Shown here piece after piece: positions 3,779 through 39,433 of a stretch of 64,000 bases of DNA. The stretch is from Oscillospiraceae bacterium (GTDB lineage Bacteria > Bacillota > Clostridia > Oscillospirales > Acutalibacteraceae), in NCBI GenBank assembly GCA_029098185.1, contig JAQXNV010000043.1, positions 33,105 to 97,104 of the forward strand, given 5' to 3'. Under the pieces are notes generated by a model. That model searched no databases, was not told the origin of the DNA, and saw nothing but the letters and a program-made list of their open reading frames with translations. Made by a program: the position numbers and the translations under genes. Numbering within the stretch: the stretch's first letter is position 1; each line of letters begins with the position of its first letter.

Positions 3779-4429
3779 TCAGGATTCCGCAGTGTCGTGG
3801 TCACTCATCAGATAGCTGAGGGTCATGAGGCTGTCGTTAAGGTGGACGGCCTCCACGGTGACATCGGGATATTTTCTTGAAATGTTAAAGTGGCTGAAAT
3901 TCCAGAAGAAGCGGATGCCGCTGTCATACACCTGTTCTACCAGCAGTCCGGCAGGCTCTTTTGGCGTACACAGCACGGCCATCTCCGGTTTTTCCCGCTG
4001 GCAGAAGTCCACCAGCCCCGCCACATCCAGCACTTTTACGTCGTCGAAAACGGTGGTGCCGATGATGTCCGGGTTATTGTCGAAAATGCCCACGAGATGG
4101 AAGCCCTTCGTCTCAAATTCCAGATAGGCGGCAACGGCCTGCCCCAGATTACCGGCGCCCAGTACGATGGCCTTTTTGCTGTTGTTCAGGCCGAGGATCT
4201 GAGCGATCTCATCCCGGAGCTGGTCCACAATATAGCCGTATCCCTGCTGACCGAATCCGCCAAAGCAGTTCAGGTCCTGCCGGATCTGCGAAGCGGTGAG
4301 ACCCATCTTCAGCGACAGGTCCTTAGAGGAGATCCGGGTGATATTGCTCTGCATCAGCTCTGTCAGATAGCGGTAATAGCGTGGCAGTCTGCGAATGACA
4401 GACATGGAAATATTGCCTCGTTTCGCCAT
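3779..4429 (-). CDS. rex: Redox-sensing transcriptional repressor Rex
   Basis: Winged helix (LPRYYRYL, ISSKDLSLKMGLTASQIRQDLNCFGGFGQQGYGY) plus Rossmann GAGNLGQA. Confidence 0.95.
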   Translation of the reverse strand: MAKRGNISMSVIRRLPRYYRYLTELMQSNITRISSKDLSLKMGLTASQIRQDLNCFGGFGQQGYGYIVDQLRDEIAQILGLNNSKKAIVLGAGNLGQAVAAYLEFETKGFHLVGIFDNNPDIIGTTVFDDVKVLDVAGLVDFCQREKPEMAVLCTPKEPAGLLVEQVYDSGIRFFWNFSHFNISRKYPDVTVEAVHLNDSLMTLSYLMSDHDTAES

Positions 4430-37310: not shown

Positions 37311-37375
37311 TTTAGGGAAATCAAGTTCAAATTTTGGGGAAAGTGTTTCTCCGTTTTCTATGGAGGATCTCAGAA

Positions 37376-38053
37376 ATGGGAGAACAGGAAAAGATCGAAT
37401 TGCTGCAAAAGAATTTTGGCGCCTGGGAGCATTTGTCCGACGAAGAGAAAAAAGGACTTGTGAAGAACAGCTATTTTACCACCTGCCAAAAAGGGGAGAA
37501 CGTCCACCGGGGCGAGCGGGAATGTAAAGGGCTGATCTTTGTCTGCAAGGGATTGCTGCGGGCGTACATGATGTCGGATGAAGGGAAGGAGGTCCCCTTG
37601 TACCGGATGGACGAGGGAGAATGGTGTATCCTGTCGGCTTCCTGTGTCATCTCCAACATCACCTTTGACGTACACATCGAGGCGGAAAAGGAGACAGAGC
37701 TGCTCATCATCAGCGCGCCGTATTTCCGCCGGATGACCACCAACAACATCTATGTGGAATGTCTGGCTTACAAAATGGCCACAGACGGTTTTTCAGAAGT
37801 GATGTGGGCTATGCAGCAGATGCTCTTTATGAGCTTTGATAAACGGTTGGCCGTATTTTTGTGGGACGAGAGCAGCGCCTGCGGCAGCGACACCATCAAA
37901 ATGACCCACGAGCAGGTGGCAAAGCACACCGGCAGCGCCAGAGAGGTCGTCACCCGGATGCTCAAATCCTTTGCCAATAACGGCATTGTAGAATTATCTC
38001 GAGGCGGCATCAAGATCATCGACAAGGAAAAGCTGCGCAAGCTGACCGAATAA
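37376..38053 (+). CDS. Crp/Fnr family transcriptional regulator
   Basis: cNMP-like domain and C-terminal HTH (MTHEQVAKHTGSAREVVTRMLKSFANNGIVELSRGGIKI). Confidence 0.92.
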   Translation: MGEQEKIELLQKNFGAWEHLSDEEKKGLVKNSYFTTCQKGENVHRGERECKGLIFVCKGLLRAYMMSDEGKEVPLYRMDEGEWCILSASCVISNITFDVHIEAEKETELLIISAPYFRRMTTNNIYVECLAYKMATDGFSEVMWAMQQMLFMSFDKRLAVFLWDESSACGSDTIKMTHEQVAKHTGSAREVVTRMLKSFANNGIVELSRGGIKIIDKEKLRKLTE

Positions 38054-38055
38054 GG

Positions 38056-38094
38056 AGACCGGTAGGAGACATCCTGCCGGTTTTGTGTTTTTAA
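38056..38094 (+). terminator. Terminator after the Crp/Fnr gene
   Basis: ACCGGTAGGAgacaTCCTGCCGGTTTTGTGTTTTT. Confidence 0.7.
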
Positions 38095-38125
38095 TCGACA
38101 GGTGTCTGTGATATTATGGGACAAC

Positions 38126-38163
38126 GTGTGAAATTTATAACAATATTGCTAAAACTTTAACAA
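38126..38163. promoter_or_regulatory. Tandem Rex-type operators upstream of the alcohol dehydrogenase
   Basis: GTGTGAA-N4-ATAACAA (38126-38143) and TTGCTAA-N4-TTAACAA (38146-38163). Confidence 0.6.
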
Positions 38164-38272
38164 ATTTTTGTGTGATTTGGTCACTGTTTTCCTAGGAAAG
38201 GACTGGTAGAATAAAGACAGTTCAAACAATAAAAACCCAAAACATACAAAAATCATTTAGGAGGAACATCTC

Positions 38273-39433
38273 ATGGCATCTACTTACTATTTCTTACCAA
38301 CAAGAAACGTATTCGGTGAAGGCTCCGCCGCAGAGGCCGGCGACCTGATGAAAACATTAAACGCAAAAAAGGCGCTGATCGTAACCGATAAGTTCCTGGC
38401 ATCCTGCGGCATGGCAGACAAGATCCAGGCATATTTTTCGGCAGCCGGCATTGAGAGTGCCGTATTCGACGGCGCAGAGCCAAACCCAACAGACAAGAAC
38501 GTAGAGGCTGGTCTGCAGGCCTACAAGGCAAACGGATGTGACTCCATCGTTTCCCTGGGCGGCGGTTCTTCTCACGACTGCGCAAAGGGCATCGGCCTGG
38601 TAGCAGCCAACGGCGGCCAGATTTACGACTACGAAGGCGTTGACAAGTCTAAGAACGACATGGTTCCGCTGATGGCCATCAACACCACCGCCGGTACCGC
38701 TTCTGAGATCACCCGGTTCTGCATCATCACCGATACCCGCAGAAAGGTCAAGATGGCTATTGTTGACTGGAAGGTCACTCCACAGATCTCCATCAATGAC
38801 CCAGAACTGATGAAGGGTATGCCGGCTGGCCTGACTGCCGCAACCGGTATGGACGCGCTGACCCACGCTATCGAGGCTTACGTTTCCACCGCAGCTAACC
38901 CGCTGACAGACGCTGCCGCCATCAAGGCCATCAAGATGATCCGTCACTATCTGCCAAAGGCAGTGGCCAACGGCGACTATATGCAGGCAAGAGACGCCAT
39001 GGCATACGGCCAGTATCTGGCAGGTATCGCATTCAACAACGCTTCCCTGGGTTATGTTCACGCAATGGCACACCAGCTCGGCGGCTTCTACAACCTGCCA
39101 CACGGTGTTTGCAACGCTATTCTGCTGCCATATGTTGAGCGCTTCAACCTCATCGGCAACCTGAACCGCTTTGAGGACATCGCTGTGGCAATGGGCGAGA
39201 ACATCGACGGTCTGTCCACCCACGAGGCAGCACTGAAGGCTATCGATTCCATCAAGACCCTCAGCGCAGAGGTCGGCATCCCGACTAACCTGAAGCAACT
39301 GGGCGTAAAGCCGGAGGACTTCCGCGAGATGGCCGAGAACGCCAAGAAGGACGTTTGCCAGCTGACCAACCCAAGAAAGGCTTCTGTCGATCAGGTCATC
39401 GAGATCTACCGTCAGGCATACGAAGGCGAATAA
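38273..39433 (+). CDS. Iron-containing alcohol dehydrogenase
   Basis: SLGGGSSHDCAKGI, TTAGTASEIT, GMDALTHAIEAYVS, HAMAHQLGGFYNLPHGVCNA. Confidence 0.96.
   Translation: MASTYYFLPTRNVFGEGSAAEAGDLMKTLNAKKALIVTDKFLASCGMADKIQAYFSAAGIESAVFDGAEPNPTDKNVEAGLQAYKANGCDSIVSLGGGSSHDCAKGIGLVAANGGQIYDYEGVDKSKNDMVPLMAINTTAGTASEITRFCIITDTRRKVKMAIVDWKVTPQISINDPELMKGMPAGLTAATGMDALTHAIEAYVSTAANPLTDAAAIKAIKMIRHYLPKAVANGDYMQARDAMAYGQYLAGIAFNNASLGYVHAMAHQLGGFYNLPHGVCNAILLPYVERFNLIGNLNRFEDIAVAMGENIDGLSTHEAALKAIDSIKTLSAEVGIPTNLKQLGVKPEDFREMAENAKKDVCQLTNPRKASVDQVIEIYRQAYEGE

Follow-up and report, generated by a model that had tools for sequence, protein, structure and literature searches.

Two adjacent palindromes before an iron-containing alcohol dehydrogenase gene, in a 64-kb stretch of DNA from an uncultured anaerobe (the window, 64,000 nucleotides in full), probably form a tandem Rex operator that would repress this gene and be relieved at a higher NADH/NAD+ ratio. 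The Rex-type reading of both sites is supported by their ranks under an independent scoring matrix, by the motif found upstream of adhE genes, by the Rex protein encoded in the window, and by pairs of the same spacing in other species. Motif, rank, pair geometry and recurrence, and the presence of Rex are shown by sequence here.

Candidate sites and abundance of the motif

The features of the window that bear on this reading are the following.

3779-4429, minus strand: rex, redox-sensing repressor of 216 aa, above the cut-off of the NCBIfam Rex equivalog
37334-38053, plus strand: Crp/Fnr-family regulator gene (Pfam HTH_Crp_2 and cNMP_binding)
38055-38084, plus strand: intrinsic terminator of the upstream Crp/Fnr gene, a 13-pair stem with a T run
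38089-38117, plus strand: P2, predicted alternative, weaker promoter, TTTTAA-17-TATTAT with TG extension (consensus scan)
38126-38143: site 1, weaker candidate Rex-type operator GTGTGAAATTTATAACAA (GTGTGAA-ATTT-ATAACAA), 3 mismatches to TTGTTAA-N4-TTAACAA
38146-38163: site 2, stronger candidate Rex-type operator TTGCTAAAACTTTAACAA (TTGCTAA-AACT-TTAACAA), 1 mismatch to TTGTTAA-N4-TTAACAA
38172-38184, no strand: weak palindrome GTGA-N5-TCAC, possible Crp/Fnr activator site (read from sequence)
38204-38212, plus strand: P1, likeliest promoter, predicted extended -10 TGG-TAGAAT (read from sequence)
38273-39433, plus strand: iron-containing alcohol dehydrogenase of 386 aa, presumed target (Pfam Fe-ADH and ADH_Fe_C)

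Reading of the sequence confirmed the coordinates of both sites as given in the preliminary description, and the mismatch counts agree with its account of site 2 as a single departure from the Rex consensus and of site 1 as a weaker 18-bp match, which departs in both half-sites. The centres lie at 38134.5 and 38154.5, so that the claimed spacing of 20 bp is exact; the claim that dimers would occupy the same face of the DNA holds only approximately, since 20 bp correspond to 1.9 turns. Both sites are located in a 219-bp intergenic region, after the terminator, and sites 1 and 2 start 147 and 127 bp, respectively, before the alcohol dehydrogenase, a putative NADH-linked fermentation gene whose best NCBIfam matches are under their cut-offs. 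Its product shares 80-83% identity with Enterobacterales proteins (Symbiopectobacterium, Kosakonia, Brenneria) and about 78% with those of Flavonifractor, and among 150 family genomes close copies occur within its own genus only. This likeness and the near-absence from its own family suggest horizontal transfer.

A site with at most one mismatch is expected 0.00 times by chance in 64 kb (0 of 100 shuffles), and dinucleotide shuffling of the 219-bp intergenic region yielded one in 17 of 20,000 cases. A tandem pair, defined as two sites with at most three mismatches each and 18-23 bp apart, appeared in 2 of 20,000 such shuffles. Site 1 by itself is at chance level for a 3-mismatch site (2 found vs 1.0 expected); given site 2, the shuffles yield P = 0.004 for a partner with at most three mismatches at that spacing. 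A scoring matrix was trained on 26 adhE operators, all from family members other than the window's genome. Among all 18-mers of the window, this matrix placed site 2 first (22.0 bits) and site 1 second (18.4 bits), and the third-ranking 18-mer scores just 9.2.

Among the 32 regions upstream of adhE, drawn from 30 family loci and two congeners, 26 have the motif at two or fewer mismatches, compared with 0.5 expected as the average over 60 scrambled palindromes. Exact matches number 36 in 150 family genomes vs 4 for the reversed control, an approximately 9-fold difference. The genome-wide motif scan proposed in the preliminary description gave a divided answer, as the number of sites is not raised in the 1.63-Mb genome of the window, yet good matches are found at fermentation genes. 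There, sites with at most two mismatches number 8 vs 11 for the reversed control and those with at most one mismatch 2 vs 2, in neither case an excess, and because of this lack of enrichment it is placement and conservation that carry the argument. In the same genome, a hydrogenase-type gene cluster has two good matrix scores of 26.1 and 26.3, adhE has 22.1 with an overlapping 15.3, and a second iron alcohol dehydrogenase has 19.9; the candidate regulon is therefore coherent, though total matches are at background. The AT-rich intergenic DNA and the background-level motif count could be taken to mean that both sites are chance palindromes without function, but the shuffle statistics, the matrix ranks and the recurrence of the pair make this extremely improbable.

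Rex proteins and the neighbouring Crp/Fnr regulator

The window encodes rex where the preliminary description had placed it, and the 216-residue product belongs to the NCBIfam Rex equivalog. Its best solved relative is a Rex, 3wg9, from Thermoanaerobacter ethanolicus, and its recognition segment TASQIRQDLNCFGGFGQQGYGY differs from the 3wg9 Rex at one residue. The operator of T. ethanolicus Rex is ATTGTTANNNNNNTAACAAT (ATTGTTAN6TAACAAT) (PMC5886521). A rex gene was present in 13 of 13 genomes checked. The window's genome also encodes a second, diverged Rex-family protein of 217 aa with an altered recognition helix (G000:C48:14374-15027; L282:5375-6028). This gene is found downstream of the second iron alcohol dehydrogenase and an NfnA-like gene, and a Rex-like site GTGTTAAATTATTAACGA is located about 40-60 bp upstream of that alcohol dehydrogenase. 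In the window, acn-icd-rex is found without adhE, which is located elsewhere in that genome; in the congeners G002 and G001 (L090 and L091), adhE lies directly downstream of acn-icd-rex and has tandem Rex sites. The congener adhE is about 49% identical to that of the window's genome over its N-terminal part. In G002, a perfect Rex consensus (L095:2690) precedes by about 50 bp an operon whose genes we read as oxaloacetate-decarboxylase/pyruvate-carboxylase-like.

A gene for a Crp/Fnr-family regulator is located directly upstream of the alcohol dehydrogenase; its start codon is uncertain, perhaps 37376, and its closest solved relative is 3dv8. This raises the question whether the sites, or at least site 1, belong to that regulator, which would then activate adh together with the GTGA-N5-TCAC palindrome. 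The latter is centred at -41 of P1, a promoter with a poor -35, site 1 contains TGTGA-N6-TAACA, fitting a CRP-like TGTGA-N6-TNACA, and by our own reading the recognition helix SAREVVTR retains the R-E-x3-R pattern of CRP. However, the tandem pair recurs at other alcohol dehydrogenase loci, and the Crp/Fnr neighbour is present at none of the 110 loci examined except that of the window. Site 2 lacks GTGA/TCAC half-sites, the -41 palindrome is short (4+4 bp only), and relatives of the regulator adjoin thioredoxin and CoA-disulfide-reductase-like genes. Ownership of the sites by the Crp/Fnr neighbour is thus quite unlikely.

Assignment as a CRP/FNR site (TGTGA-N6-TCACA or TTGAT-N4-ATCAA) was rejected: site 2 fits neither form, site 1 has one mismatch, and the -41 palindrome has a spacer of 5 bp. 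The Crp/Fnr protein was likewise rejected as the regulator of the arrays described below, being absent from every other homologous locus examined. It is nevertheless a reasonable partner regulator. At L197-L203, its relatives stand beside thioredoxin, thioredoxin-reductase and CoA-disulfide-reductase-like genes (our own reading of the names), hinting at a role of these relatives in thiol or sulfur stress.

Recurrence of the pair and its position relative to the promoter

The sites are conserved before orthologous genes, as a pair in five other species, but the pair is absent from the two closest orthologues. These two, which are congeneric and 84-86% identical, have a single strong site instead; it lies about 450 bp ahead of the start codon, and its 18-mer, TTGTTAATTTCATAACAA, is the same in both. 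In the five other species, which comprise Flavonifractor and further Oscillospiraceae-type records with about 78% identity, the two sites are exactly 20 bp apart. Counting the window, the distance from the start of the first site to the gene is 145-152 bp in all six. The exact 20-bp pair thus occurs in 6 of 6 promoters, the window included, vs at most 1 in 500 shuffles; three of the six are from Flavonifractor and not mutually independent. Beyond the pair, the Flavonifractor-type promoters have a weaker third palindrome at a further 22 bp, Clostridiales 1_7_47_FAA has a triple array with 21-22 bp steps, and C. citroniae a weaker triple array. Paired sites were also found in Dethiosulfatibacter, Anaerosolibacter and 54-55%-identical homologues of two congeners. 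Pairs scoring at least 30 were obtained for 9 of 44 Firmicutes homologues, for 0 of 37 others, and for 7 of 3673 control tiles. By these sequence comparisons, the tandem upstream pair recurs before relatives' versions of the alcohol dehydrogenase. The full upstream regions have diverged too far for their alignment to be informative beyond the sites.

The terminator closes the upstream Crp/Fnr gene, and adh therefore probably has its own promoter. Transcription from P1 is predicted to start near 38219, so that the sites would lie at -64.5 and -84.5, and a P1-type extended -10 is found at a similar distance in the two closest orthologues (TGC-TAGAAT and TGC-TAAAAT). P2, which overlaps the T tail of the terminator, has a predicted start near 38124, with the sites at +10.5 and +30.5. 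Both sites are thus upstream of P1 and downstream of the weaker P2, with start positions predicted in either case. Because a simple sigma-70 scan gave no promoter scoring 9/12, these promoter positions are provisional.

In the family, the adhE operators overlap the predicted -10 or start, as is classical for a repressor, and the positions -7.5, +6.5 and -26.5 relative to the predicted start recur among them. Unlike these, the alcohol dehydrogenase pairs lie upstream of the likeliest promoter; the Flavonifractor-type arrays are at about -77.5 and -97.5, with a third site near -55.5, and are followed by a good -35/-10 pair (predicted starts). The adhE genes of the congeners G001 and G002 have a tandem one-mismatch pair 21 bp apart, resembling that of the window; there, however, it occupies the classical repressor position (-7.5 and +13.5 from the predicted start), whereas the window's pair lies upstream relative to P1. 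At five adhE promoters (L218, L219, L225, L227 and L240), two Rex-type sites are 53-54 bp apart, about five helical turns, vs 0.02 expected from shuffles, and these are possible looping or cooperative pairs.

A position just upstream of the -35 is typical of activators, and in several clostridia it is occupied by two or three palindromes at intervals of 20-22 bp, often with flanks of TAGTTA/TAACTA and not TTGTTA/TAACAA. A regulator other than Rex, recognising a GTTA-N6-TAAC-like motif and probably acting as an activator, could accordingly bind the phased array. The sites in the window, in contrast, score like true Rex operators under the adhE matrix, no regulator gene is evidently common to the alcohol dehydrogenase neighbourhoods, and rex was found in every one of the 13 genomes. 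TAGTTAA half-sites also occur in adhE operators adjoining rex and in predicted Thermoanaerobacterium saccharolyticum adhA and hfs sites, and TAGTTA, TGGTTA and TAACTA variants are among the predicted Rex sites at adhA, asr and hfs (PMC5886521). A different regulator of the phased array before these alcohol dehydrogenases is therefore unlikely, although at the degenerate arrays of other species an activator with a similar motif may act. The Flavonifractor array sites score 9-21 bits and the strict Rex motif is not enriched in those genomes, which counts against the Rex reading. The TAGTTA-N6-TAACTA variant alone is not enriched either, with fewer sites than its control.

With Rex as the favoured regulator, NAD+-rich cells would have adjacent Rex dimers bound upstream of the alcohol dehydrogenase, keeping expression low. 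A rise in NADH/NAD+ would release Rex and switch the gene on, and the induced enzyme would re-oxidise NADH by aldehyde reduction. Binding, release by NADH and repression are drawn here from known Rex biology. Because the sites lie upstream of the likeliest promoter, simple repression is unproven. From -64/-84 Rex may exclude an activator or upstream contacts of RNA polymerase; alternatively, it may act at the second promoter, which the sites overlap. Rex footprints span 23-29 nt (PMC5355995), so that dimers 20 bp apart would touch, and cooperative binding or mutual exclusion is therefore expected. A more general proposal, possible but doubtful, is that Rex arrays in helical phase, located upstream of the -35, recur as a promoter architecture of this clostridial alcohol dehydrogenase, in which adjacent dimers act without covering the promoter, as activator, anti-activator or cooperative switch.

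Comparison with known Rex systems

The established role of Rex is repression relieved by NADH, and the earlier statement that Rex control of alcohol dehydrogenases is already known was correct in this sense (PMC8457756; PMC5886521). Deletion of rex in T. saccharolyticum raised adhE and adhA expression (PMC5886521), whereas an activating role of Rex has been proposed without being demonstrated (PMC8457756). In the part of the literature covered, multiple Rex sites per promoter are described, none of them a tandem with 20-bp spacing that precedes the promoter. Rex control of fermentation genes is thus known already, and what is unusual here is the side-by-side pair and its position relative to the promoter. 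Sequence support for membership of this iron alcohol dehydrogenase in the Rex regulon of its host, an uncultured anaerobe, is unusually good, and the recurrent phased arrangement of two or three sites offers a test case for cooperative Rex action or for action other than blocking RNA polymerase.

The clostridial Rex operator consensus is given as TTGTTAANNNNTTAACAA (Ravcheev et al. 2012, as cited in PMC8457756). With the clostridial operators, the window shares the motif, the alcohol dehydrogenase target class and a Rex with a matching helix encoded in the genome. Those operators lie over the -10 or the start, whereas the two sites of the window, 20 bp from each other, apparently precede the promoter. 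In T. saccharolyticum, two predicted Rex sites likewise precede an alcohol dehydrogenase gene, adhE, but they are located at -150 and -31 from the gene and are not adjacent, as they are in the window (PMC5886521). Judged by sequence, the pair described here is a well-supported addition to the known class of Rex operators.
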